From Ktedonobacteria bacterium (GTDB lineage: Bacteria; Chloroflexota; Ktedonobacteria; Ktedonobacterales; JACDGC01), in contig DAIDHM010000074.1 in assembly GCA_027459705.1 (NCBI GenBank), positions 1 through 33,834 on the forward strand: a DNA stretch of 33,834 bases. Direction: 5' to 3'. Under the pieces are notes generated by a model. The model had not been told where the DNA came from, made no database searches, and saw nothing but the letters and a program-made list of their open reading frames with translations. The translations under genes and the position numbers were made by a program. Of the stretch, positions 1 through 33,834 are shown one piece after another. The first letter of the stretch is position 1, and every line of letters starts with the position of its first letter.

Positions 1-336
1 TAATAAGATCGCATGCGTACAGGCGGCGGCAATCTGTTGCGATTCCAGCGATGGAATGCCGCCCGCATCCACTAAAAGGGGAAGGTGACGTTGATCTATG
101 AAATGGCTCACCGAGTCAGCAAACGCCTTCGTCCAGGGGCCACGAACACGGGAGCGCAATTCGCGCACCGCCGTCTCGGTGGCCTCATGTGACCAATCAC
201 CTTCGCCATCCGGACTGGCCCGCAGGGCATAGTGTGGCACATCGCGCGTACGTAAAACCTTGCTTAACCGATAGAGTAGCGTGCTCTTGCCCGCATGCGG
301 CGGCCCACCGATGAAGATCGCAGCAAACTCTGACAT
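1..336 (-). CDS. P-loop NTPase, Csx3-AAA-like, partial (runs off the left edge)
   Basis: Only the first 112 residues are present; the frame is open to base 1. The protein starts MSEFAAIFIGGPPHAGKSTL, with a Walker A motif GGPPHAGKST at residues 10-19. A conserved-looking stretch follows at residues 42-50 (PDGEGDWSH), and a hydrophobic strand LPLLVDAGG at residues 85-93 could be a Walker B equivalent. From memory of the family, this pattern resembles the AAA-type ATPase domain found fused to or next to the ring nuclease Csx3/Crn3 in type III CRISPR loci; I cannot verify this and no Csx3 domain is visible in the portion present. A purine-rich AAAGAGAA lies about 6 nt before the ATG. The gene is divergent from the CARF-HTH gene, with 43 nt between the start codons, so the two may share regulation. 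ATP binding is well supported; the CRISPR link is inference. Confidence 0.7.
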   Translation of the reverse strand, partial: MSEFAAIFIGGPPHAGKSTLLYRLSKVLRTRDVPHYALRASPDGEGDWSHEATETAVRELRSRVRGPWTKAFADSVSHFIDQRHLPLLVDAGGIPSLESQQIAAACTHAILL

Positions 337-379
337 GATGATTCTCTTTCGTTCTTTGCACAGTATGGAGGCTTCGCGA

Positions 380-1183
380 ATGCCCGGAACTGATCAGGCC
401 GTCGCGGTCATGACCGTCGGCGGTCAACCGCAGGTCGTCACTCTCCTTTTGGATGCTCTGTATGCGCGTAAGGAGCGCATCACGACCCTCTACCTGATAC
501 ATCTGGCCTTGATTTCACCCCGCTATCAGGAAGCCCTTTCCAAGATCCGCGCGGAATGGCGAGATCAGCACTACGGCGATTATCCTTGCGAACTCCGCAC
601 GATCCTCATCCGCGATCGCGGTGAACCCGTCAGCGCTCTCGACACGGAAGAGGCGATCGACGCCGTCCGCGACACATTCCATGACTTGTTCAGTTCATTG
701 AAAGAGCACGATGCGCAGATCCATCTCGGTCTGAGCGGTGGCCCCCGCCTCCTCGGGCATATGGCCAGCGCCATGGCGCGACAACATTTCAAGCATATCG
801 ATCGTATCTGGCACCTGCATTCTTCGGATCAGATTCGCGAGCAGACGCGCAATGGCGCCATCCTGCATCTGCCATCCACCGCTGAGGTCCGCTTGTTACG
901 GGTCCCCTTCAATCCACGCGATCACATCCCGCTGTCCACCGAACAACGCGATCAGCAACAACGCTGTCGCCAGGCGCTCCACGAGATGACTACCCGTCAG
1001 CGCGAGGTCTTGCGCGCCTTCGTCCGCGGTCTGACACCCCAGGAAGTGGCGAACGAGTTGAGCATCACCGTCAAGGTCGTCGACAGCCACAAGACCGCGA
1101 TCTTTCAGATCTGTGATACCTACTGGGAACATTGCGATCATCATTATCACTGGCTGAAGACCACGTTCGCCCCATTTTTCTAG
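380..1183 (+). CDS. CARF domain protein with C-terminal LuxR-type HTH, putative cOA-responsive regulator
   Basis: 267 residues. The N-terminal domain (about 5-180) looks like a CARF domain of the NE0113 type. Loop motif 1 is TVGGQPQVVT at residues 12-21, and loop motif 2 is LSGGPRLLG at 118-126; these are the two loops that line the cyclic oligoadenylate pocket in CARF proteins. Residues 202-247 read as a LuxR/GerE-type helix-turn-helix (TTRQREVLRAFVRG, then LTPQEVANELSITVKVVDSH). A ligand-gated transcription factor analogous to Csa3 is therefore likely; NE0113-like CARF domains may alternatively degrade the ligand as ring nucleases. The start at 380 is chosen because GGAGG sits 8 nt upstream and the first beta strand follows at once; in-frame ATGs at 335 and 365 lack this. 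It lies directly upstream of the cmr operon on the same strand, separated by 169 nt that contain a dyad. Confidence 0.85.
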   Translation: MPGTDQAVAVMTVGGQPQVVTLLLDALYARKERITTLYLIHLALISPRYQEALSKIRAEWRDQHYGDYPCELRTILIRDRGEPVSALDTEEAIDAVRDTFHDLFSSLKEHDAQIHLGLSGGPRLLGHMASAMARQHFKHIDRIWHLHSSDQIREQTRNGAILHLPSTAEVRLLRVPFNPRDHIPLSTEQRDQQQRCRQALHEMTTRQREVLRAFVRGLTPQEVANELSITVKVVDSHKTAIFQICDTYWEHCDHHYHWLKTTFAPFF

Positions 1184-1237
1184 TCCGTCCAGCTTTGTAC
1201 GCTCACACCACTATACCTCCTCCCTCAGATATCAGCC

Positions 1238-1275
1238 TGCGAGAATTCCCTCAAATCTCCAAGGGGGTTCTCGCA
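1238..1275. promoter_or_regulatory. 14-bp inverted repeat upstream of the cmr operon, candidate operator or hairpin
   Basis: The arms TGCGAGAATTCCCT (1238-1251) and AGGGGGTTCTCGCA (1262-1275) pair over 14 positions, 12 Watson-Crick and two G-T wobbles, around a 10-nt centre. As DNA the outer 8 bp of each arm form a perfect dyad. No T-tract follows on the plus strand, which argues against a simple Rho-independent terminator for the CARF-HTH gene. It ends 22 bp before a -10-like TATACT, so a bound regulator would cover the -35 zone. The CARF-HTH protein is the obvious candidate binder; this is inference. Confidence 0.5.
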
Positions 1276-1297
1276 AGGCAAGCCATCGGTGCCGCGT

Positions 1298-1303
1298 TAT
1301 ACT
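1298..1303 (+). promoter_or_regulatory. Candidate -10 box of the cmr operon
   Basis: TATACT matches the bacterial -10 consensus at 5 of 6 positions and lies 49 nt before the cas10 start. No convincing -35 hexamer is found 16-19 bp upstream, as expected for a promoter that depends on an activator. Confidence 0.3.
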
Positions 1304-1352
1304 AAAGTTGTTTGCACAAACAGCAAGCACAACGGAATGGAGTGGTAGTCAA

Positions 1353-3188
1353 ATGCGGTATCTGTTTGCGGCTTCGCTTGGTCCCGTACAGGGTTTTATC
1401 TATATGGCGCGCGCCACCCGTGATTTCTGGTTTGGGTCCTGGTTGTTGAGTGAAGTGAGCAAAGCAGGGGCGAAATCGCTCCTTGAAAATCAAGCAACGT
1501 TGATTTTTCCATCACCGCAGTCAGATCTGCATAAAGACTCCGCGACGAACGTTGCTAACAAAATTATTGCGGTAGTCACCGCGGATTCGTTCGCCGCAGT
1601 GGAATCGCTGGCGAAAGAGATGAGTGCGGCAATGCGCGAGCGGCTCATGGATCGCTGGCAAGATATCTTGCGCCAGCTCAAGGATGCGCCGCTTGATGGC
1701 GACGCGGCCCTCGACCAGATACGCGATCTGCTGGAGATCACCTGGTGCGCGGTAGAATTTCCCGACCTCAAGGAATATGCTATGCGCCGCCAGGAGGTGG
1801 AAGCATTGCTGGCGGCCCGGAAGACCACGCGCACCTATGCGGCAGCGACGTGGGGCAAGGCCGGTCGCGCGAAATCCTCGCTGGACGGGCAACGTGAATC
1901 CGTCCTACCCAAAGGCAGTAAGGGGGAAAGACATCGCTGGACTTATGGCGCCCGGCGTGGAGAAGAGCTGTCGGCGATTGATCTGTTGAAGCGTCTGGGA
2001 CGCCGGGAGAGTGGGCAGCAATACTTTCTGACCACCACGCATATGGCCGTGCTGCCGATTATCCATCGGTTTGGCGCGGAGCAAACAGGGCCAGCCGCCG
2101 AGGCCTGGCACAACTATATCAGCACGTTGCGCGAAATCGCGCCGCGCTTACTGAATGATGAACAGGTGGCGAGCGAATATGCCAGTGAGAGTTTTTTCGG
2201 CAATGCCGATGGCACGCTATTCTTCGCGGATCGCGTCGTCGATGAGCTCCCAGATGGCACCGCCCCTGCCGCCATGGAGCAGCACGCCCACGACATTCGC
2301 ACGAAGCTGGGCGCGTTCTACAATGCCGCGAAGATCGTGCAGCCCAATCCGTATTATGCGATCCTCGTCGCCGATGGCGATGGGATGGGTACGTGTATCA
2401 GTGCATTAGCGCGAGCAGGCTATGAGCGCCATAGCCAATTATCCCAGGCGCTGGACGACTTTGCCACCGCGGCGCGGACGATCATACGCGAACATGAGGG
2501 CGCACCCATCTTCACCGGGGGCGATGATGTGGTGGCGTTACTGCCACTCCACACCGCGTTATCGTGCGCAGCCCAGTTAGCAACGGGGTTCAGGACAGCG
2601 ATGCAGCCCTTCATGACGAATGTAGCAGCTCCACCGACGCTCTCGGCGGGCATCGGCATCAGTCACTATCTGACCCCGTTGGTCGATGCGATGGCGCTGG
2701 CTCGGACCGCGGAGAGCGCCGCCAAAGGAATGCAGGACAAAAACGCCCTCGCCGTGACGGTCAGCAAGCGGAGCGGCGGGGAGACGACGGTGCGCGGCCA
2801 TTGGGGAGAGATCGATAGCCGCATCGCCACTTTCATAGCATGGCATCAGTGCAATCTGTTCCCCGATGGCGCGGCATACGAGTTGCGCGCCTTGAGCCGC
2901 CAATTTCCCCTGCCACGAGAAGGGCAAGACAGGGAGCAGATCGATCGACTGCGTCGTGTGGAAGCCTGGCGCATCCTGCGGCGCAAGGCGATCGCCGCCG
3001 GGGAACGCGCCAATGTCCTGAATGAGTTGCGCATGATATTGCGCATTACCCCCGAAGACGCGCTCCTGCCATTCGCAGGTGATGCCGTGGATATCGACGC
3101 GTTGGCGGATATGCTGATCGTTGCCCGACTTTTCGCGCAGGTCTATGACCAGGCGGGGATCACCCCCGCACAGAAGGTGATGGCATGA
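1353..3188 (+). CDS. cas10: Type III-B Cas10 (Cmr2), GGDD cyclase, no HD domain
   Basis: 611 residues. Large subunit of the Cmr effector, expected to make cyclic oligoadenylate when the complex binds target RNA. The N-terminus has the Cmr2 signature GPVQGFIYMARATRDFWFGS near residues 10-29. The palm regions carry DGDGMG at 341-346 and the catalytic GGDD at 389-392, followed by strand VVALLPL, so the cyclase looks intact. There is no HD nuclease domain: the protein begins directly at the first palm-associated region and only 15 further codons are open upstream. The complex should therefore lack Cas10 DNase activity. The start at 1353 is preferred over an upstream ATG at 1308 because GGAG lies about 10 nt upstream and homologous sequence starts there. 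The stop overlaps the cmr3 start by 4 bases. Confidence 0.95.
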   Translation: MRYLFAASLGPVQGFIYMARATRDFWFGSWLLSEVSKAGAKSLLENQATLIFPSPQSDLHKDSATNVANKIIAVVTADSFAAVESLAKEMSAAMRERLMDRWQDILRQLKDAPLDGDAALDQIRDLLEITWCAVEFPDLKEYAMRRQEVEALLAARKTTRTYAAATWGKAGRAKSSLDGQRESVLPKGSKGERHRWTYGARRGEELSAIDLLKRLGRRESGQQYFLTTTHMAVLPIIHRFGAEQTGPAAEAWHNYISTLREIAPRLLNDEQVASEYASESFFGNADGTLFFADRVVDELPDGTAPAAMEQHAHDIRTKLGAFYNAAKIVQPNPYYAILVADGDGMGTCISALARAGYERHSQLSQALDDFATAARTIIREHEGAPIFTGGDDVVALLPLHTALSCAAQLATGFRTAMQPFMTNVAAPPTLSAGIGISHYLTPLVDAMALARTAESAAKGMQDKNALAVTVSKRSGGETTVRGHWGEIDSRIATFIAWHQCNLFPDGAAYELRALSRQFPLPREGQDREQIDRLRRVEAWRILRRKAIAAGERANVLNELRMILRITPEDALLPFAGDAVDIDALADMLIVARLFAQVYDQAGITPAQKVMA

Positions 3189-4432
3189 CGAACTGGCTCA
3201 TTGAACCCCAGGATCCGGTGATTGTCCGCGATGGCCGACCTTTCAGCGCGACCCCGGGCGCGCGGGCCGATTCGCTGCCCTTTCCCTACCCTGGCACCGT
3301 AGCGGGTTTGCTGCGGACCCTGGCTGGGCAGAACGATCAGGGCGTCTTCGACCCGGCCCGGGCCGACGATGTATTGAAAATCGCGCTGCGCGGCCCATTG
3401 CTGGCGGAACTGCGGGCGGATGGGACGCCGCACAGGTATTACGCCCCCGCTCCGCGCGATGCGCTCTGGGTGCGATCCAACTCGATGGATCTGTTTCGCC
3501 GACTTACGCCGCTCGCGCTGCCCAAGGGCGCGATCACAGATCTGCCAGACGACTTGCTGCCAGTAGGTATGTCAGATTCTATCGAGGCGAAACCAGCGAA
3601 AGATGCCCCAGCGTTCTGGCGGTGGGAACGGTTTCAACAGTGGTTAACGTCACCTGGTGATTTCAGCACCAAGACGCCCGCCTTGGCGGAGATCGGCATA
3701 TCCGCTTTGCCGCGGGATGAACGCGTGCATATCGCCATCGATCGCACCACCCGCACCGCCAGCGAGGGCGCGCTCTTCATGACGACCGGCCTCAGTTTTA
3801 CCCAGCAGGCATCACGCGCGGCGTCGCTCAACCAGACTCGGCGCCTCGCGCTGGTCGCCACCACCGTGGGCGACGCGGCAGCGGCGCAAACCCGGCTCGG
3901 CGCGTTGGGTGGCGAACGGCGCACCGTCACAGTGCGTCCACTCGCGGATCCCTTACCAGGCCTCCCGGATACATTAGTGGAGCACATCGTCAAAGACCGC
4001 CATTGCCGCCTGATCTTGCTGACCCCCGCGTACTTCGCGGCGGGGTATCGGCCAGATTGGTTGCTGCAAACACACCATGACGTGACCCCACAGCTCGTCG
4101 CGTTGACGATCGACCGACCCCAGGTGGTCTCGGGTTGGGACTATCATGAGCACATGATCCGACCAGCGCGGCGCCTGGCACCCGCGGGCACCGTGCTGTT
4201 CTTGCGCCTGGCTGGTGCATCCGGGAGAGAACCATCCGCCGCAGCCATAGCCAACTGGGTGCAGCGGATGTGGCTCCAGCCGGTCAGCGATGACTACGTG
4301 GGCAGTAGCGATCAGCAGGCATCTTACACGGATATCCGCACAGATGCCGAACAGTGGAGGCGCGACGGTTATGGTCTCGCCGCGCTCGGCACCTGGGATG
4401 GCAACCCGCAAACAATGAAAGTGGGGCTATGA
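3185..4432 (+). CDS. cmr3: Type III-B RAMP protein Cmr3
   Basis: 415 residues. Cmr3 sits next to Cas10 at the foot of the Cmr complex and contacts the crRNA 5' handle. The N-terminal block IEPQDPVIVRDGRPFSA followed by SLPFPYPGTVAGLLRT (residues about 6-45) is the Cmr3 hallmark, and the length is typical. The start codon overlaps the cas10 stop (ATGA) and the stop overlaps the cmr1 start in the same way, indicating translational coupling. The family and operon position agree, so the call is firm although the C-terminal half has no motif I can name. Confidence 0.93.
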   Translation: MTNWLIEPQDPVIVRDGRPFSATPGARADSLPFPYPGTVAGLLRTLAGQNDQGVFDPARADDVLKIALRGPLLAELRADGTPHRYYAPAPRDALWVRSNSMDLFRRLTPLALPKGAITDLPDDLLPVGMSDSIEAKPAKDAPAFWRWERFQQWLTSPGDFSTKTPALAEIGISALPRDERVHIAIDRTTRTASEGALFMTTGLSFTQQASRAASLNQTRRLALVATTVGDAAAAQTRLGALGGERRTVTVRPLADPLPGLPDTLVEHIVKDRHCRLILLTPAYFAAGYRPDWLLQTHHDVTPQLVALTIDRPQVVSGWDYHEHMIRPARRLAPAGTVLFLRLAGASGREPSAAAIANWVQRMWLQPVSDDYVGSSDQQASYTDIRTDAEQWRRDGYGLAALGTWDGNPQTMKVGL

Positions 4433-5757
4433 AGATGCGCCAACCACCACCCAGTGATCCACCGGCGATCCAGGCGGGATCGTCGAATCTGATCACCCAG
4501 ACCCGTGAGTATGCGGTGATCACGCCGCTCTTCGGCGGCGGCGTCACGCCGATGGCCGCCGACCCGATCACGGTCGTCCGGGGCAGCGAGATCCGCGGCC
4601 AAATGCGCTTCTGGTGGCGCGCCACCCGTGGCGGCCGCTATGACGGCAACCTCGCCGCAATGAAGCGCGACGAGGACCTGATCTTCGGCACAGCCGCCAG
4701 CTATGACAAAGACGGCAATGTGCAGGGCGGACCCTCAGTGGTGCAGATCGCGACGAAGGTCCTCAATAAGGGGATGGAGGTCGCGCCATTCAGAGTAGAG
4801 CCTGCGCGGAATGGTCGAGGCCTGCAGGTTCGCCATGAGGAACAATCAGGTGTTCCCGCATATGCAGCCTTTCCCCTGCAACCACAGAAAAATGAACTCA
4901 CCTCGGGACATGTCATACTCAGGAAAGTTCGCCAGGGTGTCCGGTTTGCCATGACCATCACCTTCCCCACGGAACTCCAGGGGTCCCATGGACGCATTCC
5001 CATCGAGCAGGATCTCATGGCGACCCTCTGGGCATGGGAAACGTTCGGTGGATTGGGAGGGCGCACACGTCGCGGATTTGGGGCGCTGAAACCGTTAAAG
5101 ATCCAACAAACCCCGGTCAAGTTACCTACATCGGCTGATATAGAAGATGCTCTCTATAACGCGCTTGATGCGAATGTGTTGGATGGAGAATGGCCACCAT
5201 CCGTACCCCATCTCGCCAGAAGCGATGCTCGCCAACTAGCATTTATGCGTGAAGATCGGGACGAGGCGAGCAGATGCTGGAGTCTGCAAACAGACGCCTA
5301 CATGAAGTTTCGTCAAATACGCCAGCAGAGCAGAGTACCTGGCCTAAATGCCTGGCCAGAACCCGACGCAATTCGGCAGATCTCCAAAAAGCCCACGCGT
5401 CGCGAACGGGTCATCGCCAAGTTTCCCCGTGCGGTATTAGGTCTGCCAATTATTTTCCATTTCAAGGATCATGATGAACCCGGTGATTCGACAGTGCAGG
5501 GGATCAATCATGATCGGATGGCGAGCAGACTTATCCTCCGCCCCGGCGCATGCGACGATAACCTGTACGTTGGCATTGCGCTCGTGCTCGACGGACCGAG
5601 CCTGCCGCCAGGGGGAGTACGCATCAAAGAACGCCAGAATTCGCCGACGTTACAGACAGAGTTGACCGAGGACGAGGCCAGCACCGTTGACGTGCTGGCT
5701 GGCAAGCCGGACATTCTCCAGGCATTTCTTGATTATTTTGAGGAGTATCATTCATGA
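4429..5757 (+). CDS. cmr1: Type III-B RAMP protein Cmr1
   Basis: 442 residues. Cmr1 caps the crRNA 3' end of the Cmr backbone. The signature EIRGQMRFWWRA is at residues 54-65, preceded by the first RAMP strand YAVITPLFGGG. A second RAMP motif, GGLGGRTRRGFGAL, lies in the middle of the protein and is the glycine-rich loop typical of Cmr1. The start at 4429 overlaps the cmr3 stop by 4 bases; a longer in-frame start at 4354 would overlap cmr3 by about 80 bases and lacks homologous sequence. The 3' end overlaps cmr4 by 4 bases. Confidence 0.95.
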   Translation: MKMRQPPPSDPPAIQAGSSNLITQTREYAVITPLFGGGVTPMAADPITVVRGSEIRGQMRFWWRATRGGRYDGNLAAMKRDEDLIFGTAASYDKDGNVQGGPSVVQIATKVLNKGMEVAPFRVEPARNGRGLQVRHEEQSGVPAYAAFPLQPQKNELTSGHVILRKVRQGVRFAMTITFPTELQGSHGRIPIEQDLMATLWAWETFGGLGGRTRRGFGALKPLKIQQTPVKLPTSADIEDALYNALDANVLDGEWPPSVPHLARSDARQLAFMREDRDEASRCWSLQTDAYMKFRQIRQQSRVPGLNAWPEPDAIRQISKKPTRRERVIAKFPRAVLGLPIIFHFKDHDEPGDSTVQGINHDRMASRLILRPGACDDNLYVGIALVLDGPSLPPGGVRIKERQNSPTLQTELTEDEASTVDVLAGKPDILQAFLDYFEEYHS

Positions 5758-6623
5758 ACGCTCGCCAGATCTTCATCCACGCGCGGACCCCACTCCATGC
5801 GGGCACTGGCCAGGGGACAGATGTCATCGATCTGCCGATTGCCCGTGAACAGGCGACGGGCATCCCCTATCTCCCTGGCTCCTCACTCAAAGGCGCGCTG
5901 CGCGATACCTGCCCGAGCCAACAGCGCACGGCGATCTTTGGGCCAGAGACGGCGAACGCCAGCGACCAGGCTGGTGCAGTCCAGATCACCGATCTGCGTT
6001 TGGTGCTGTTGCCGGTGCGCAGCCTGGCAGGCACCTTCGCCTATGTCACCTCGCCATATATCCTGCGCCGCTGCGCCCGCGACGCCGCGGATTGTGGCGC
6101 GCAGCCGCCCACAGTGCCAGTGGTCGCGGGATTGGAGACGCTACTGGCCACAGAAAAGACAGCGCTCCAGGCTACCACGCAGGGGGACGCCAAAGCCTAT
6201 CTGGAAGATTTGGATCTGACCATCACAAAGCAGTCAGAGGTAACGACATGGGCTGAATGGTTAGGGAAGCAGATCTTTGCCGGGAAGAAGGATGACCTCC
6301 AGATGCTGACAGAGCGGCTGGCTATCGTCCACGATGACGTGATGACCTTCTTGCTAACGACAGCTTTGCAGGTGACGGCGCGCATCCGCCTGGAGGAGAA
6401 GTCCAAGACCGTCGCGAAAGGCGGCCTCTGGTATGAGGAAGCGTTGCCCGCCGAAGCGGTGCTGAGTGGTTTGCTGGTGGCGATGCCGAACGCGAAGACC
6501 GGCATGGATGACAAAGCCATCTTCGCCGCCATCGCCGCGTTGGTGGGCAAACCAATGCAACTGGGCGGCAAAGCAACGGTCGGGCGCGGTCTCTGCCAGA
6601 TCTCCCTGGCACAGGAGGCGTGA
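5754..6623 (+). CDS. cmr4: Type III-B RAMP protein Cmr4, target RNA endonuclease
   Basis: 289 residues. Cmr4 forms the helical backbone and cuts target RNA at 6-nt intervals in characterised systems. The N-terminus reads PLHAGTGQGTDVIDLPIARE (residues 13-32). Asp26 in the IDLP motif matches the catalytic aspartate of Cmr4 (Asp26 in the Pyrococcus protein), so RNA cleavage should be intact. IPYLPGSSLKGALRD follows, and the C-terminal glycine-rich loop is LGGKATVGRGLCQI. The start overlaps the cmr1 stop (ATGA). With no HD domain on Cas10, this subunit is the only predicted nuclease of the complex itself. Confidence 0.96.
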   Translation: MNARQIFIHARTPLHAGTGQGTDVIDLPIAREQATGIPYLPGSSLKGALRDTCPSQQRTAIFGPETANASDQAGAVQITDLRLVLLPVRSLAGTFAYVTSPYILRRCARDAADCGAQPPTVPVVAGLETLLATEKTALQATTQGDAKAYLEDLDLTITKQSEVTTWAEWLGKQIFAGKKDDLQMLTERLAIVHDDVMTFLLTTALQVTARIRLEEKSKTVAKGGLWYEEALPAEAVLSGLLVAMPNAKTGMDDKAIFAAIAALVGKPMQLGGKATVGRGLCQISLAQEA

Positions 6624-6627
6624 GGCG

Positions 6628-7047
6628 ATGGGCATGCAGACACGCGATCAAATCCTGGCAACGGCAGCCTTTCAGCGAGTCGAGGCTATCCTCAATGGCA
6701 AACCACCAGAATATCGTAAGAAATATGGCAGCATGGCGCATACCTTGCCGGTGCTGATCCGCACGGCGGGCCTCGCACAGGCCCTGGCCTTTGTCGAGGC
6801 CCGTGGTGATGAGGCTCAGCGGCAATTGATGGATGACCTGGCGCGTACCCTCACATTTACAGATGGGAACGCGCTGGCAAATCAGAGCCGCAAGGCGCCC
6901 TTGCGCGAATATATGATCTTGTCGCAGCGGGCCATCGCCGCGTTGCTGTGGTTCAAACGTTTCGCGCAATCCGTGCTCAATGTGGACGCCGCGACCGAGG
7001 ATGACGCAGAAGACGCGACGCCTGCGCGTGGAGGTGAAACCCAATGA
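6628..7047 (+). CDS. cmr5: Type III-B small subunit Cmr5
   Basis: 139 residues, the usual size for the all-helical small subunit of the Cmr complex. It starts MGMQTRDQILATAAFQRVEA and contains KYGSMAHTLPVLIRTAGLAQALAF, a run characteristic of Cmr5 (positions about 33-56). REYMILSQRAIAALLWFKRF is the conserved final helix. The last 20 residues are acidic and probably disordered. AGGAGG ends about 11 nt before the ATG at 6628, 4 nt after the cmr4 stop. A longer frame from 6466 exists but lies inside cmr4 and is not needed. The stop overlaps cmr6 by 4 bases. Confidence 0.93.
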   Translation: MGMQTRDQILATAAFQRVEAILNGKPPEYRKKYGSMAHTLPVLIRTAGLAQALAFVEARGDEAQRQLMDDLARTLTFTDGNALANQSRKAPLREYMILSQRAIAALLWFKRFAQSVLNVDAATEDDAEDATPARGGETQ

Positions 7048-7919
7048 CCCAGCAACGACCCACACCGGGACCGACAGCCAACGGCGGACGAATCGAGGCG
7101 CGCCGCCAGGCATTGCAGACAGTAAAAATCTCGCCCACAACCACACATCCCGGCCTGTGGTTTGACCGCTATCTTGATCACCAATGGCAAAAAGGCCGAC
7201 CATTTGGCACGAATGGCGAGTCGCCATTGGCTGCCCATGTGGATGAGACGACGCATGTTGGCCGTATGCTGCAATCTCAGCAGGTAAGCCAGTTTGGCAA
7301 AAATTATCAGCGTTGGTATCAACGCTGGGAGGAGTCGTGCAAAGATGCCAACGCGCGGACCCGCATGGCCCAGGCCACTGGACGATTGGTCCTGGGTCTG
7401 GGCGGCGAGAGTGTCATTGAGACCGGAATTGCCATCCACCACACCTACGGCGTCCCATACCTGCCCGGCAGCGCCCTCAAGGGGCTGGCCGCGCACTATG
7501 CGCGGAACTCGCTGAATGCAGCGTGGGGGACCTGGGAGATCACCAAAGGGAAACCACAATTCATGCCAGCCGATGCTTATATCACGATGTTCGGCAACCT
7601 AGAAGCAGCGGGGTACGTCACCTTCTTTGATGCGCTACCCCATCCGAGTAGCGCGGTCGATGGGCGGTTCTTGCATGCCGATGTTCTGACCGTGCACCAT
7701 CCGGATTATTATGCCAACAACGGCACTCCACCCGCGGATTGGGATAGTCCCAATCCCGTATCGTTCCTGAGCGCGACCGGGAACTATTGCATCCCAATTG
7801 CTGGCCCACCACTATGGCGCGATCGCGCCTTCGAGATCCTGCGCCTGGCGCTGGCCGAACTGGGCATCGGCGCCAAGACATCGTCTGGCTACGGACGTAT
7901 GGAGTTATCACAAACCTAG
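7044..7919 (+). CDS. cmr6: Type III-B RAMP protein Cmr6
   Basis: 291 residues. Cmr6 lies at the crRNA 3' end of the backbone next to Cmr1. The conserved core is LVLGLGGESVIETGIAIHH followed by YGVPYLPGSALKGLAAHYAR (about residues 115-155), the standard Cmr6 signature. A C-terminal glycine-rich segment LGIGAKTSSGYGRMEL (about 274-289) is the RAMP G-loop. The roughly 45-residue N-terminal extension looks low in structure. Its start overlaps the cmr5 stop, and 21 nt separate it from the CARF effector downstream, so all seven genes should be one transcript. Confidence 0.94.
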   Translation: MTQQRPTPGPTANGGRIEARRQALQTVKISPTTTHPGLWFDRYLDHQWQKGRPFGTNGESPLAAHVDETTHVGRMLQSQQVSQFGKNYQRWYQRWEESCKDANARTRMAQATGRLVLGLGGESVIETGIAIHHTYGVPYLPGSALKGLAAHYARNSLNAAWGTWEITKGKPQFMPADAYITMFGNLEAAGYVTFFDALPHPSSAVDGRFLHADVLTVHHPDYYANNGTPPADWDSPNPVSFLSATGNYCIPIAGPPLWRDRAFEILRLALAELGIGAKTSSGYGRMELSQT

Positions 7920-7940
7920 CGCAGAAGGATGATGTGCATT

Positions 7941-9083
7941 ATGCCAGTTTCCAATCATAGCCGTCTGATCGTCTCTACGGTTGGCACCAGTCTGCTGACC
8001 AACGCCGCCAACGACAATGCGCCGGATCGCAAGCGGCTGAACGACCTCAGCAATGCCAAGGTACTGACCGGCGAAGACGAGGAACTTGTCGTGCGTTATG
8101 TCGATCGCGCCGCAGCGACCCTCGCCACCGACAATCTCGCGGATGTTCGTCGAGCCAGCGCTGAACTCAATGGCCTGCTGACGCTGGCCAGGGAAGAATC
8201 ATCTACCAACACGCTGGATCAGCATATGTTGATTACGACTGACACCGCCTTAGGACGGCGATGCGCTGAGCTCATTGCCGAATATATGCAGGCCCACGAG
8301 ATGTCCGTGGTGGGTACACTTGTTCCAGGCGAACTCACCACCGCGACCCGCGCCGGTTATCAGGAAGGCATTCGCAATCTCGTCAAGCAGTGCGAAGAGA
8401 CCTTTCCGGGGTACCAACAGGCGGGTTACGCGCTGGTCTTCAATCTCGTCGGTGGCTTCAAATCACTCCAGGGCTATATGACCACACTAGGGATGATCTA
8501 TGGCGCGGAGAGTGTGTATCTTTTCGAGGGCAAGGGAGCCGAATTGCTCCACATCCCACCCCTGCCGATCGTCGTCGATGATCAGGTCCTCATCCAACAC
8601 GCTGTGCCACTGGCCATGATGGTGGATGGCAGAGAGATGATTCCCGCTGAGTTGGTCGCGGGTATTTCGCAAGTGCTCGTCGAAGCGGACGCAGAGTCAG
8701 CGTGTGCCTCGGCCTGGGGCGAGGTGCTCTGGGGGCGCATCCGCCAGAAAATCTATCGCGAAAGCCTCCTGGATTTTCCCCGCTTGCAATATGCGAAATC
8801 CTTTGAACGTGATTTCCAAGCTGCGACCCCAGAACAGCGCATTGAATTGCAGACAAAACTGGCCCGTGTGTCGGCGCTGCTCTTGGCCCATGATGGCGAT
8901 CGCGCTCCGCTCCGTGCCGATGGCGGATTGTTGTATGAGACCTATCGCGATCGCCCTTCCGATGGCAGCCAGATTGACCATTTTCGCATCTCTCAAGGCG
9001 ATCGCGTCTCCTGCATCTGGCGTGAGGGTGAACTTCATCTGCGCCATTTTGGTGCACGCAATCAGGTGAATGGAAACCCCTGA
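7941..9083 (+). CDS. CARF-RelE-like CRISPR effector, Cami1-like
   Basis: 380 residues. The N-terminal 230 residues form an APE2256-type CARF domain: STVGTSLLTN at 12-21 (ligand loop 1) and FNLVGGFKSLQGY at 167-179 (ligand loop 2), then SVYLFEG at 191-197. The last 100 residues (281-380) have the layout of a RelE/HigB mRNA interferase: helical SFERDF...RIELQTKLARVSAL, then strands IDHFRISQGDRVSCIWREGE and LHLRHFGAR. CARF-RelE proteins (Cami1) are known cA4-activated ribonucleases that stop translation. Candidate catalytic basic residues are His347, Arg349, Arg355 and Arg361, unconfirmed. The start at 7941 is chosen because AAGGA lies 11 nt upstream; ATGs at 7929 and 7932 are too near that site. 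As last gene of the cmr operon it is the likely toxic output. Confidence 0.85.
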   Translation: MPVSNHSRLIVSTVGTSLLTNAANDNAPDRKRLNDLSNAKVLTGEDEELVVRYVDRAAATLATDNLADVRRASAELNGLLTLAREESSTNTLDQHMLITTDTALGRRCAELIAEYMQAHEMSVVGTLVPGELTTATRAGYQEGIRNLVKQCEETFPGYQQAGYALVFNLVGGFKSLQGYMTTLGMIYGAESVYLFEGKGAELLHIPPLPIVVDDQVLIQHAVPLAMMVDGREMIPAELVAGISQVLVEADAESACASAWGEVLWGRIRQKIYRESLLDFPRLQYAKSFERDFQAATPEQRIELQTKLARVSALLLAHDGDRAPLRADGGLLYETYRDRPSDGSQIDHFRISQGDRVSCIWREGELHLRHFGARNQVNGNP

Positions 9084-9095
9084 TCAGCGACCTTG

Positions 9096-9108
9096 CGAGC
9101 CTGGCTCG
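9096..9108. terminator. Short hairpin between convergent genes
   Basis: CGAGC (9096-9100) and GCTCG (9104-9108) pair around a 3-nt loop in the 25-nt gap between the convergent CARF-RelE and Imm33-like genes. The stem is only 5 bp and lacks a T-tract, so terminator function is weakly supported. Confidence 0.25.
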
Positions 9109-9888
9109 TCACACCAGTCCCGCGGGATCCTCATAGCCTTCGTCGTCGTCGGGACGGAAGATCACCACCTGGTCGCTGGTGAAGATCACCGCCGTCCCGA
9201 CCGCGAGCGCCAAATAGGGCAGGATGCGTGGGAAAGCGGCCACGAGTTCGCGCAGAGGTACCTGCTCACGTTCGCGCGGATCCTCATGGTCATGCGGCTG
9301 ATCATAACAGCTAAAGAACCAACCGCTCTCGCCGGAATCACCCTCATAAGCGTAGCGCTGCGCCGCGACGGGATATTGCCAGAGGAAGCCAGTTGGCGGC
9401 ACACGGGTGCAGGTATAGACCAGATCGCTACGGTGCGGGGCGTCGAGCGCCCCGGGGACGATGTTGCGCCGCCGCGTTTCCGCCTGGAGCGCCAGCAGGT
9501 CCAGCGCCTGGTCAGCGCCGTCCACCCAGCGATCCTCGTGTTCAGCCAGGGGATCCGCCAGTTCTTGCACGACCAAAAAGCCGGGGCCAATGGCATCTGC
9601 CGGAGAGCTCGCCCGGAACCCCAGAGTCGTCCAGCCATAGGCCAGGGTCTCGCCCGGTTGAATGATCGTGGGCAATTCAGCAGTTCCGTCGCCGCCTTCT
9701 CCGGGTACATTGCTGGCGTTCGCGAAAGCATCGCCAATGAACGCCAGGAGATCCGTCACCCGCTGATCGCGCGCGTCGCCTTCCTGCCAGGCCATCGGCA
9801 CAGCGAAATCGTGCTGTTCCGCGTGCTCCAGGCCTTCGGTCCAGGCCCAGCGCGGTTCGGTACCATTAGGACTGAGAAACACTTGCAT
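9109..9888 (-). CDS. Imm33-like (DUF2185-type) domain protein
   Basis: 259 residues, acidic and apparently cytoplasmic, with no signal peptide or membrane helix. The C-terminal third (SGESGWFFSCYDQPHDHED, then a helix and FPRILPYLALAVGTAVIFTS) resembles the Imm33/DUF2185 fold, in which a Gly-Trp-x-Phe strand is followed by an acidic stretch and a helix ending near a Gly-Thr/Ser turn. That family includes polymorphic-toxin immunity proteins and housekeeping relatives. The N-terminal part, including QPGETLAYGWTTLGFRAS, is not one I recognise. It is convergent with the CRISPR operon, 25 nt from the CARF-RelE stop. The opposite strand is also open for 292 codons, but that translation has no recognisable family features. 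Domain assignment is from pattern only. Confidence 0.6.
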   Translation of the reverse strand: MQVFLSPNGTEPRWAWTEGLEHAEQHDFAVPMAWQEGDARDQRVTDLLAFIGDAFANASNVPGEGGDGTAELPTIIQPGETLAYGWTTLGFRASSPADAIGPGFLVVQELADPLAEHEDRWVDGADQALDLLALQAETRRRNIVPGALDAPHRSDLVYTCTRVPPTGFLWQYPVAAQRYAYEGDSGESGWFFSCYDQPHDHEDPREREQVPLRELVAAFPRILPYLALAVGTAVIFTSDQVVIFRPDDDEGYEDPAGLV

Positions 9889-10044
9889 CCGACTGGTCCT
9901 CGTCTCTCCAGAATTCCCTGCTCAGTTTTGTCATCGCGGCATACCTGATCGTATCACGATCGCCCAACATGCAGAAAACAAAGCCTGGATCGCCGATGCG
10001 CATGGCAGTGAGGACGCGACCGTGGCAGAGAAATATTTGACACT

Positions 10045-15860: not shown

Positions 15861-16982
15861 CTAATAGTCGAGCATCGCTTGCAGAGCTTTTTCCGATTGC
15901 TTGCTAAGGGGGATCAGGGTCGCCTCCGGGTCATCCAGCTGCACGCTGTAGCTGTTGCGCGTGAACTGGATGACGGCGCGGATATGCTGGAGGTTCACCA
16001 GGTAGGCACGGTGTGCTTTGAAAAATCCGCGCGGCACCAGTCGCGTCTCGAGTTCCTGCAAGGTCAAATTGGTCATGGCCTCTTCGGCAACAGTGCGCAG
16101 ATACGTCTTGCCATCACGACTCGTGGCATAGAGGATTTCAGCGGGATCAAAAAGTACGATACGGTCGTCCTTGCGAGCCGGTACTTTGAAGAGACTGAGG
16201 CGCGCGGTCGACTCAATGGCGGGTGGTGCCGCGCTGGCGGCGGCGCCTTGCTCAGTCACCAGCGTCATGAGATCGGCATTGATGACCGCAGGGTGATCCT
16301 GCGACGCGGGTGATGTGGTCGCTGGGGTAGTCGCCCCAGATTCCTCGGCGAGGAGTGGACCGATAAGACGGCCATCCTCCAACAGAAAAAGACGATGGGC
16401 GAAGCGGCTACACCAGGTCAGATCCTCGTCGATGATCAGTACCGCCACATTGGCGGTCGCCAAATCTTCAATGATCTGGCGCATCAGCGTCTGCGTCGGC
16501 AAATCAGTCCGCGCGATCGGCCGCTCAAGGAGCACCAGACCAGGCTTAGCCAGCAGCGCACGCGCGAAAGCCAATCGCCGTTGCTGGGCGGAAGTCAAGG
16601 TTTTGACACGGACAGCGGCCTGATCTTGTAAACCAACTTCACTCAGCAAGCCCCAGACATGAGCGACTGGGAGGTCGCGCGCGAAAGCGATGAGTTCCAG
16701 GTTTTCCCAGACAGTCTGTCGATCGTAGAGCAGATCTTCCGCGAAGAGAACACCCAGTTGCTGGCGCGCAGCCAGGGATCCTGCATCCTGATCTCCAATG
16801 GTGATTTTTCCCCCACTCAGTGCGATCTCGCCACACACCGCCTGTGTCAGCATCGTGAGCGCGCTACCGATCGATCCCACGATTGCGACAATTTCGCCGG
16901 ATCCAACCTCCAATTGTTCCACATCCAGGATGACCTGATCCTTGACCAATTTGCGCGCGCGCGTGATCCGGAGCATACCCAT
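15861..16982 (-). CDS. Degenerate ABC ATPase-LytTR fusion transcription regulator
   Basis: 373 residues. Residues 1-235 have the layout of an ABC ATPase but with broken catalytic motifs: the Walker A is GSIGSALT (36-43, the Lys replaced by Ala), the Walker B ends LLERP (Asp/Glu pair altered), and the signature is LTSAQQRR (129-136). ATP hydrolysis is unlikely. A linker rich in Ala, Pro and Thr follows. Residues about 275-373 are a LytTR DNA-binding domain (KTYLRTVAEEAMTNLTLQEL, FFKAHRAYLVNLQHIRAV). Such fusions occur next to ABC transporters and probably sense or bind the transporter's own ATPase. It is divergent from an ABC operon. The start at 16982 is chosen because a likely promoter lies between it and the upstream ATG at 17135. 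Confidence 0.85.
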   Translation of the reverse strand: MGMLRITRARKLVKDQVILDVEQLEVGSGEIVAIVGSIGSALTMLTQAVCGEIALSGGKITIGDQDAGSLAARQQLGVLFAEDLLYDRQTVWENLELIAFARDLPVAHVWGLLSEVGLQDQAAVRVKTLTSAQQRRLAFARALLAKPGLVLLERPIARTDLPTQTLMRQIIEDLATANVAVLIIDEDLTWCSRFAHRLFLLEDGRLIGPLLAEESGATTPATTSPASQDHPAVINADLMTLVTEQGAAASAAPPAIESTARLSLFKVPARKDDRIVLFDPAEILYATSRDGKTYLRTVAEEAMTNLTLQELETRLVPRGFFKAHRAYLVNLQHIRAVIQFTRNSYSVQLDDPEATLIPLSKQSEKALQAMLDY

Positions 16983-17058
16983 GTTCCCCGCTAGCACAGG
17001 ATTTTCCTGCTTGCTCAGGCCAGGAGCATGCCCGATGCCCCGTCGCCAGGATGCTGGG

Positions 17059-17067
17059 ATTGTAGCA
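17059..17067 (-). promoter_or_regulatory. Extended -10 promoter for the ABC-LytTR gene
   Basis: Read on the minus strand the bases are TGCTACAAT: an extended -10 (TGn) followed by TACAAT, 5 of 6 consensus matches. No good -35 is present. Transcription would begin near 17052, about 70 nt before the chosen start codon. Confidence 0.45.
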
Positions 17068-17157
17068 CACTCATCCCCCCAAACTGTACGGTCAGCGATG
17101 TGTTGGTGCTCCGCACAACGGCAGATCCGCACCATTCAGCGATGGTGCAACGCATCA

Positions 17158-17312: not shown

Positions 17313-18236
17313 ATGTCGATTCAGGACACAGGTAGCGTACCGACAGTGGAACCTGCGCCACCTCACCTCCACATGGCAGATGCCGCCATCAGCGCTCATG
17401 CCCTCCGGCGCCGTTTCAAAGCAACCATTGCGGTCGATGGTATTGATCTGCGGGTTGAGCGCGGCACCATCTTTGGATTGCTCGGGCCAAATGGCGCCGG
17501 CAAGACGACCATCATCCGTATGTTGACCGGGCAGATTGTGCCGACCAGTGGCACTGCGACCGTGGGTGGCTTCGACGTGGTACGCGATCGTGAGCAATTG
17601 AAACCTTTGATTGGGGTGGTCTTCGAGGATCAGAATTTGTATGATCGGCTCTCTGGTCGTCAAAACCTGGAATTCGCCCGCTGGTTGTACGCCATACCGA
17701 AGCGCCGCATCGATGAGGTGCTGGACCTGGTGGAATTGCGCGATCGGGCACGCGATCCCGTCCAGGCCTATTCCAACGGTATGCGTCAACGCTTGATGAT
17801 CGCGCGAGCATTACTCCACGAACCGCGCATTCTGTTCCTGGATGAGCCAAGCCGCGGGCTGGACCCCATCGCGGCGCGCCAGATCCGCCAGACCATACAG
17901 CACCTGCGCGACACCGGCATGACGATCCTGCTCACGACACATCTGATGGATGAGGCGGATCACCTCTGCCAGCGGGTCGCCTTCATCGTCGCGGGCACGA
18001 TCGTCGCCAATGATACGCCGCGCGCTCTGAAACTCGCGCATAGCACGCCCGTCGTGGAGGTGACCATGGCGGACGAAGAAGACGGATTGCGTGAGGTCAC
18101 CCTGAATCTGCGCGACGCCGGAGATCAGCAGCGGTTAGCGACCTGGATCGCGGCGGATGCGGTCAGATCGATGCATACACGCGAAGCCACCCTCGAAGAA
18201 GTTTTCATCGCCACGGCTGGCGTCCGCCCGGCGTGA
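17313..18236 (+). CDS. ABC transporter ATP-binding protein (ABC-2 type exporter)
   Basis: 307 residues. All ATPase motifs are intact: Walker A GPNGAGKTT at 58-66, signature YSNGMRQR at 153-160, Walker B ILFLDEP at 173-179, and H-loop His210 in TTHLMDEAD. The signature SNGMRQR is typical of the DrrA/CcmA/NatA group that pairs with ABC-2 membrane proteins. The first 28 residues are a variable extension. AGGAGG lies 9 nt before the ATG, which supports the long start. The permease follows after 16 nt. The substrate is unknown: antibiotic, lipid or ion export are all possible. Confidence 0.93.
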   Translation: MSIQDTGSVPTVEPAPPHLHMADAAISAHALRRRFKATIAVDGIDLRVERGTIFGLLGPNGAGKTTIIRMLTGQIVPTSGTATVGGFDVVRDREQLKPLIGVVFEDQNLYDRLSGRQNLEFARWLYAIPKRRIDEVLDLVELRDRARDPVQAYSNGMRQRLMIARALLHEPRILFLDEPSRGLDPIAARQIRQTIQHLRDTGMTILLTTHLMDEADHLCQRVAFIVAGTIVANDTPRALKLAHSTPVVEVTMADEEDGLREVTLNLRDAGDQQRLATWIAADAVRSMHTREATLEEVFIATAGVRPA

Positions 18237-18252
18237 CAGAGAGGAAAGCCAC

Positions 18253-19368
18253 ATGCATCCACGTATGATCCTGGCCATCGCGCGCAAAGACGCCCTGGAT
18301 CTGCTGATCAACAAGACCACCCTGGTCATGCTCATGACGCCGATTATTCTGGCGGCATTGTTCGCGTTCATCGGCACCATCCTGGGGCCCAGTAGCGCAT
18401 CGATCCTGGTCTATAATCCCGACAATTCACCGTTGGCGCGGATTGTTGGATCAACGTACACCAACCCAACGTACGTAAACGCGCCATCAGCCAGTGCCGT
18501 CGAGGCCGCGTTTGGCAGCGATGGCGCGCGACATTCCAGCCCGTATGATCTCGGCATCGTGATCCCGGTTGGCTTCGAAGCGGCGGTACGTGCGGGCGAT
18601 CAACCTCTGGTGCAGGTCTATATCAATGGGGATAAGAATGCATTGCAGACTACAACCTACATGACAGCCATTGTCACCAATTACGCGCGACATATCGCCG
18701 CCCCTGCCGATCCAGTTCAGGTCAGTACCGTCACCATCAATCCTCAGACCAGCGCTACCCCCCAACATACCGTGACGACATTCTATGCCCTCGCGGCCGC
18801 CATGTCCTCACTCTTCATTGGCTTAACGCTGGTTTCCAATATGTTGGTGGAGGAACGAGAACGCAAGACCATGCGCATGCTGCTGATCTCACCCGCGTCC
18901 TATGCCGATATTGTTATCGGCAAAGCGATGATCGCGCTGGTGTACCAGTTCATGCTTGCGATCGTCGCCCTGGCGATCACCGGTGGATTTCAGGGCCAGG
19001 TGCCGTTGACGTTGCTCTTTGTGCTGCTGGGGAGTCTCTTTTCGCTGTCGTTGGGGATGCTCGCTGGCGGCCTCCTCCAGACCACCAGCGCCACGGGTGC
19101 CTTGAGTGGCATCGTCGGATTCATCTTCATCGTGCCGACGTTCTTCCTGGCACCTTTCATTGCGGCACCGAATAATGTCGTCGTCGTCCTCATCAAAGCA
19201 CTGCCAACGTATTACATCGGCGAAGGTATCTATCAAGCGCTCATTGCGAGCACAACCCCGCTCACACTGGCTCGCGATCTCGGCGTCGTCCTCGGTAGCA
19301 TCGCCCTGCTGGTCGCGCTGGCGGTCTGGGCTTTGCGACGTCAGGCATCGGTCATCGCGACGGGGTAG
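18253..19368 (+). CDS. ABC-2 family transporter permease
   Basis: 371 residues. One membrane helix near the N-terminus (LVMLMTPIILAALFAFIGTI) is followed by an extracytoplasmic region of about 140 residues rich in Thr, Asn and Pro, then five hydrophobic segments in the C-terminal half, including LLFVLLGSLFSLSLGMLAGG and GIVGFIFIVPTFFLAPFIAA. This is the NatB/YhaP-like ABC-2 layout. The cytoplasmic motif EERERKTMRMLLISP after the second helix is the conserved coupling loop of the family. GAGAGGAAAG lies about 5 nt before the start at 18253; an in-frame ATG inside the ATPase gene is not needed. It forms a two-gene operon with the ATPase. Confidence 0.92.
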   Translation: MHPRMILAIARKDALDLLINKTTLVMLMTPIILAALFAFIGTILGPSSASILVYNPDNSPLARIVGSTYTNPTYVNAPSASAVEAAFGSDGARHSSPYDLGIVIPVGFEAAVRAGDQPLVQVYINGDKNALQTTTYMTAIVTNYARHIAAPADPVQVSTVTINPQTSATPQHTVTTFYALAAAMSSLFIGLTLVSNMLVEERERKTMRMLLISPASYADIVIGKAMIALVYQFMLAIVALAITGGFQGQVPLTLLFVLLGSLFSLSLGMLAGGLLQTTSATGALSGIVGFIFIVPTFFLAPFIAAPNNVVVVLIKALPTYYIGEGIYQALIASTTPLTLARDLGVVLGSIALLVALAVWALRRQASVIATG

Positions 19369-33544: not shown

Positions 33545-33834
33545 GCGGGGACACCCCGCGCCCCGGCAGGGGCTAGCGCCCCTGGCACCCCTGATCGCGG
33601 GGACACCTCGCGCCACGGCTGGGGTTAGCGCCCCTGGCACCCCGGATGGCGGGGTCTCCCCCCGCCACATCTGGGGCTAGCGCCCCTGGCACCCCAGATG
33701 GTGGGGACACCCCGCGCCACGGCAGGGGCTAGCCCCCCTGGCACCCCAGATAGCGGGGACACCTCGCGCCACGGCTGGGGCTAGCGCCCCTGGCACCCCG
33801 GATGGCGGGGTCTCCCCCCGCCACATCTGGGGCT
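33545..33834. repeat. 52-bp GC-rich tandem repeat array, 5.6 copies, open at the right edge
   Basis: Units begin at 33545, 33597, 33649, 33701, 33753 and 33805, each beginning GCGGGG or GTGGGG. Each carries two short stem-forming parts: GCGGGG-ACA-CCCCGC (variant GGGG-TCT-CCCC) and AGGGGC-TAGC-GCCCCT. Units 2 and 5 differ at one base, and units 3 and 6 are identical over the 30 bases available, so the array has a 156-bp higher-order period of three units. No open frame within it looks like a real gene. The true length is unknown because the array runs off the window. Confidence 0.9.

Follow-up and report, generated by a model that had tools for sequence, protein, structure and literature searches.

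The 33,834-nucleotide stretch of DNA analysed here (the window) is the whole of contig C2 in a 4.6-Mb, 245-contig genome (G000), and its left end carries a type III CRISPR locus with the following genes and predicted control elements.

1-336, minus strand: N-terminal P-loop part of an AAA-Csx3 protein, a Crn3 ring-nuclease fusion (PADLOC C3a67 AAA-Csx3, E=1.1e-42)
380-1183, plus strand: carf-luxR, encoding a CARF domain (residues ~6-181) joined to a LuxR/NarL-type helix-turn-helix (HTH, residues 203-243; recognition helix ~231-248), on a basis that includes 33- and 74-member alignments
1210-1215, minus strand: reverse -10 hexamer TATAGT, with transcription predicted to start near 1203 and to run antisense to carf-luxR, towards AAA-csx3
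1238-1253, no strand: predicted operator site 1 (TGCGAG-AATT-CCCTCA); its center falls at -42.5 for the reverse promoter and at -64.5 for the forward one
1260-1275, no strand: predicted operator site 2 (CAAGGG-GGTT-CTCGCA); its center falls at -42.5 for the forward promoter
1298-1303, plus strand: forward -10 hexamer TATACT, with transcription predicted to start near 1310, which is 43 nt ahead of the cas10 ATG
1353-3188, plus strand: cas10/cmr2 (NCBIfam TIGR02577, E=2e-48), with an intact GGDD cyclase motif (FTGGDDVV)
3185-7919, plus strand: cmr3, cmr1, cmr4, cmr5 and cmr6
7929-9083, plus strand: last gene of the operon, encoding a CARF-RelE effector (Cami1-like mRNA nuclease; PADLOC CARF7 CARF_RelE, E=2.4e-105)

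The carf-luxR gene starts with an ATG that has GGAGG 8 nt ahead of it. An earlier note on this DNA, made from the letters alone, had read its product as a CARF domain joined to a LuxR-type HTH, and profile searches bear this out. Pfam matches Cas_NE0113 to residues 16-199 (E=1.1e-18; 68.2 bits against a gathering cut-off of 23, so the protein belongs to PF09623) and the GerE/LuxR HTH to residues 203-243 (E=6.5e-7); the best PADLOC profile, CARF3 (E=2.3e-74), is named CARF only. The structure prediction proposed there as a check gave the same answer: an AlphaFold2 model built from 74 aligned homologues has a CARF domain and an HTH (pLDDT 92.5), and the N-terminal CARF Rossmann fold is thus supported by Pfam, PADLOC, AlphaFold2 and Foldseek together. 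The top Foldseek match is Csa3 with cA4 (6wxq, E=1.4e-6); the cA4 ring nucleases Sis0455 and Sso2081 come next. In a profile search of the PDB, the closest HTHs are those of NarL, VraR and other LuxR-type response regulators; NarL, whose structure has been solved with DNA, binds 16-bp dyads. Those carf-luxR homologues that have named records are all from Chloroflexota, with Chloroflexus islandicus and Ktedonosporobacter rubrisoli as culturable carriers, and no relative that would indicate a viral copy was present among IMG/VR contigs.

The fold, the conserved pocket motifs and the locus suggest that CARF-LuxR binds a cyclic oligoadenylate (cOA). The CARF-RelE effector and the Csx3 neighbor both point to cA4, which is therefore the most likely ligand. 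Cas10, with its intact GGDD motif and its place in the same operon, is a plausible and probably the actual source of the cOA.

The gene that diverges from carf-luxR had been described as a P-loop ATPase; the ATPase part is indeed present at 336-1 on the minus strand, but it is the truncated front of an AAA-Csx3 ring-nuclease fusion, whose C-terminal part is missing because the contig ends within the gene. Full-length homologues (about 385 aa) bear a C-terminal Cas_csx3 domain (E=5.6e-23). Among 80 Chloroflexota homologue loci, retrieved regardless of their neighbor genes, 78 have AAA-csx3 divergent from and immediately upstream of carf-luxR; the two that do not are L049, which lies at a contig edge, and L111. 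The predicted start codons of the two genes are often less than 60 bp apart and sometimes overlap. The genes downstream of carf-luxR differ (III-B or III-A/D cas10, CARF-PDDEXK, cas6 or cmr1), so the conserved unit is the csx3/carf-luxR pair set ahead of assorted type III modules. The placement of carf-luxR between an ATPase gene and the cmr genes is thus correct for this locus, but the partner conserved across loci is AAA-csx3 and not cmr.

A 14-bp dyad had also been reported between carf-luxR and the cmr operon, just upstream of a -10-like box. It is there, at 1238-1275 (TGCGAGAATTCCCT-10-AGGGGGTTCTCGCA, 12 of its 14 pairs matched), as is the box TATACT, but the 38-bp element is in fact two 16-bp dyads, each with the form 6-4-6, whose centers are 22 bp apart. 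Taken alone the dyad in the window beats 40 shuffles, but its signal is modest (p=0.02). At the same place in relatives it recurs with longer and more perfect arms (up to 23 bp). Its internal layout was obtained from a scan that measured four-half-site agreement over all combinations of internal gap and spacer in 77 loci and assumed no sequence; the scan peaks sharply at 6-4-6, a 6-bp spacer, and 6-4-6 (z=19.9), and its other high cells share the same 22-bp center-to-center diagonal. The half-site consensus is CATC(A/C)GAG, and the operator of the window is among the weaker ones, with 22 half-site matches out of 36, where other loci reach as many as 36; the operator of L048, for instance, is stronger. 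A 7-bp spacer replaces the 6-bp one in Chloroflexus-type and a few other loci (L068, L076, L077, L105 and L095), most of which retain the 22-nt -10 distances described below. One further locus has a dyad with 27-bp arms and an inter-site gap of more than 6 bp (L083:3487-3553), a possible variant spacing of the operator.

When the dyad and both -10 boxes are scored as a composite against 6,339 blocks from the same loci, a null that leaves out masked runs of N in L087, L093 and L082, the p value of the window is 0.0003. Of 79 loci, 42 reach p<=0.001 with this composite, 49 reach p<=0.01 and 53 reach p<=0.05, so that the recurrence ahead of homologous operons proposed in the earlier note holds for most of them; about one third (26 of 79) have no operator at p<=0.05 by this comparison. 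Among further loci, 7 of 19 reach p<=0.01. Further strong sites that resemble the operator but do not lie at the 3' end of carf-luxR were seen at L098:10025 (just upstream of cas10), L078:315, L081:764 and L104:11312; strong sites elsewhere in L087, L093 and L082 proved to be the masked runs of N and were discarded.

The dyad had been taken as a one-way element. A second -10 hexamer, TATAGT, lies on the minus strand (1215-1210) at the mirror position of TATACT, each exactly 22 nt from the operator, so that the element is better described as a bidirectional double operator. In 25 loci picked by the dyad alone (p<0.01), TAnnnT occurs exactly 22 nt beyond the operator in 20 on the forward (operon) side and in 21 on the reverse (carf-luxR) side, and other offsets hold few loci. 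At a chance of 1/64, and with loci treated as independent, the binomial probability of this placement is about 1e-32 (forward) and 1e-34 (reverse). Both -10s tend to be extended (TGn), and scores at the -35 position are merely slightly above random; no sigma-70 -35/-10 pair and no terminator was found at 1100-1400 of the window. With the start set, by convention, 12 nt downstream of the first -10 base, the near site is centered at -42.5 and the far site at -64.5. Judged by these predicted starts, a site centered near -42 with no -35 box appears to be the geometry of a class II activator promoter. The lux box of NarL/LuxR-type activators likewise lies at -42.5.

In whole-genome pattern scans, nearly all of the sites found lie next to carf-luxR genes. 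G000 and G024 each have two carf-luxR genes and two sites, G295 and G192 have one of each, and G011 has one gene and one site, with one further identical copy where another contig ends. G022 and G334 hold a few weak two-mismatch matches, and G000 gave two more weak ones with a looser outer-half pattern; relatives with half-sites unlike the scan pattern were not expected to match. The one-to-one co-occurrence with carf-luxR and the architecture together mark the element as a specific candidate operator near the cas genes. The second carf-luxR gene of G000 (L003, G000:C23:1-13639; 45% identical) is divergent from a csx1 (CARF-HEPN) gene and a type I-D-like operon that, by gene size and order, consists of cas10d, csc2, csc1, cas3, cas6, cas4, cas1 and cas2. 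A near-perfect operator lies directly 3' of this gene (C23:102-139), with the reverse -10 retained and the forward -10 absent. Its position beside a type I-D-like operon hints that cOA signaling might reach a type I system.

No operator is present in the csx3/carf-luxR gap of the window, nor, with locus-specific half-sites, in that of most other loci; weak hits to a loose consensus occur in L082 and L102 only. Since there is no additional site in the gap, the operator at 1238-1275 could reach csx3 solely by way of the reverse promoter. Promoter-like signals near the csx3 and carf-luxR starts are weak (Z about 1.3-2.7), and room should be left for a separate csx3 promoter near its start.

The domains and fold of the protein, the operator architecture, the two-sided -10 spacing and the one-to-one co-occurrence with carf-luxR are computational observations, and from them we infer that CARF-LuxR binds DNA, that its ligand is cA4, that it activates and does not repress, and that the reverse promoter serves csx3. 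It seems fairly probable that CARF-LuxR senses cOA (most likely cA4), binds the operator as two dimers and acts as a class II activator of both divergent promoters. Target RNA would activate Cas10, which would make cOA; the CARF dimer would sense it, and the LuxR-type HTHs would then bind 1238-1275 as two dimers on one helix face, the sites being 22 bp apart. The bound protein would recruit RNA polymerase in the forward direction to the cmr/CARF-RelE operon. In the reverse direction, it would give rise to a transcript antisense to carf-luxR that reads on into AAA-csx3, the product of which would be a ring nuclease that destroys cA4, so that the alarm would amplify the defense operon and after a delay switch itself off. 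The full two-way version, in which cOA fires the type III operon while the antisense transcript silences carf-luxR and expresses AAA-Csx3, is put forward tentatively and has less than an even chance. An untranslated antisense leader of 850 nt could be shortened by Rho, which counts against this activator-switch reading. If true, the two-way version would place amplification and self-termination of an immune alarm within one element of about 100 bp. The switch imagined in the earlier note, in which cOA acts through the CARF-HTH protein on transcription, is partly supported.

Other accounts keep the operator and its binder and alter the logic. Unliganded CARF-LuxR might repress (or activate at a basal level) and cOA release it, with derepression or shut-off as the result; the sites do overlap the -35 zone of both promoters, where repressors also sit, and ligand-on and ligand-off control are not distinguishable from sequence. 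We regard this as unlikely, since the promoters have no clear -35 box, the near site is exactly at -42.5 on both sides, as with class II activators, and a repressor would not need such exact phasing. A reading with a less than even but appreciable chance accepts the forward arm and makes the reverse -10 a by-product of a symmetric operator, or the source of a short antisense RNA that tunes carf-luxR, not serving csx3. L111 retains the reverse -10 without csx3, so that serving csx3 cannot be the sole purpose of the reverse promoter; an antisense leader some 850 nt long would also be unusual, and csx3 may have a promoter of its own. On the other hand, the reverse -10 matches the forward one in conservation (21 against 20 of 25 loci), also where it lies wholly outside coding sequence, and the C23 paralogue keeps it while losing the forward -10.

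The remaining accounts replace the binder, the element or the role of the protein. That a different regulator binds the dyad is improbable: sites and carf-luxR genes are one-to-one in five genomes, the site accompanies carf-luxR whatever the type of downstream gene, and its size suits a LuxR/NarL HTH dimer. The covariation between half-sites and the recognition helix is not decisive here; residue 236 ranks top of all pairs (z=5.2), which is suggestive, but it does not stand clearly above the phylogenetic background. About as improbable is that CARF-LuxR serves chiefly as a self-limiting, Crn1/Csx14-type ring nuclease, even though the best sequence alignment of its CARF domain is with Crn1/Sso2081 and there is a weak one with Csx14, which has been placed in the Crn1 family (PMC12409355). 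The catalytic Ser11 and Lys106 of Crn1/Csx14 (Sso2081 numbering; for their roles see PMC10018336) are absent, and in a profile alignment they fall on Gln16 and Arg123, residues that do not vary across the 74-member alignment; this replacement suggests a sensor rather than a Crn1-type nuclease, and the neighboring gene already encodes a ring nuclease. Hardly credible, finally, is an RNA element, either a carf-luxR terminator or an attenuator in the cmr leader. The long, near-perfect arms (up to 23 bp) could form a hairpin, but there is no U-tract and no terminator match, the internal 6-4-6 repeats and the exact spacing to two -10 boxes would be left unexplained, and the dyad lies upstream of the forward -10 and hence outside the predicted leader of the operon, so this reading was rejected. 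The two-dimer class II activator remains the preferred reading.

From what its sequence and predicted fold indicate, CARF-LuxR appears to be a CARF-HTH transcription factor of a Csa3-like kind, but with a LuxR-type HTH, a form not found described in the open-access literature. It shares with Csa3 (Csa3a and Csa3b of the Sulfolobales) a CARF sensor and a C-terminal HTH, and Csa3 is its nearest solved fold (6wxq). Csa3b binds cmr promoters and activates cmr genes (PMC7480081), and Csa3a binds cA4 (PMC8699464); the DNA binding of archaeal Csa3a in vitro is unchanged by cA4 (PMC8699464, PMC8844856), which counts against a cOA-controlled reading. Csa3, an archaeal regulator with a MarR-like winged HTH, works at BRE/TATA promoters and has ties to type I-A adaptation. 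CARF-LuxR carries an HTH of the NarL/LuxR type and goes with a bacterial -10 promoter, with an operator dedicated to each gene and with a ring nuclease encoded next to it; because of the HTH type it is not filed as Csa3 here. It resembles the NarL/LuxR-type activators in HTH family, 16-bp dyad size and class II position, and differs from them in having a CARF sensor instead of a receiver or autoinducer domain and a double operator that serves two divergent promoters.

The NE0113 family (PF09623), which holds the CARF domain of CARF-LuxR, was predicted in 2014 to regulate transcription (PMC4012209), and the open papers searched describe no LuxR-type HTH, operator or csx3 linkage for it. The divergent partner of carf-luxR is the known AAA-Csx3 fusion of Crn3/Csx3; the function of its AAA domain is not known (PMC12409355), and no account was found in the open-access literature of the constant divergent arrangement that pairs it with a CARF-LuxR gene. 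A 2022 review names Csa3 as the sole characterized CARF regulator or non-nuclease CARF effector (PMC9704534), and a 2024 survey deferred transcription factors and ring nucleases (PMC11229360). The open-access literature searched yielded nothing on the LuxR-type CARF regulator, on its operator or on its pairing with AAA-Csx3, though earlier mention elsewhere is possible. The locus bears on whether and how cyclic oligoadenylates control the transcription of CRISPR loci, a question that this family makes directly testable, with a clear operator for each gene, exact spacing to the promoters and a ring nuclease consistently encoded alongside. The double operator is in addition a compact signature for locating such loci.

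Beyond the cmr/CARF-RelE operon, an Imm33-like ORF (9109-9888, minus strand) is convergent with its end. The plus-strand ORF opposite it (9070-9948, 292 aa) belongs to no family and is unlikely to be a gene. The far end of the window (33545-33834) is a GC-rich tandem repeat of ~52 bp, present in 5.6 copies and reaching the contig end; it is not a CRISPR array. An ORF at 15861-17135 on the minus strand combines an ABC-transporter ATPase domain with a LytTR DNA-binding domain, and further ABC transporter genes (17313-19368) adjoin it.
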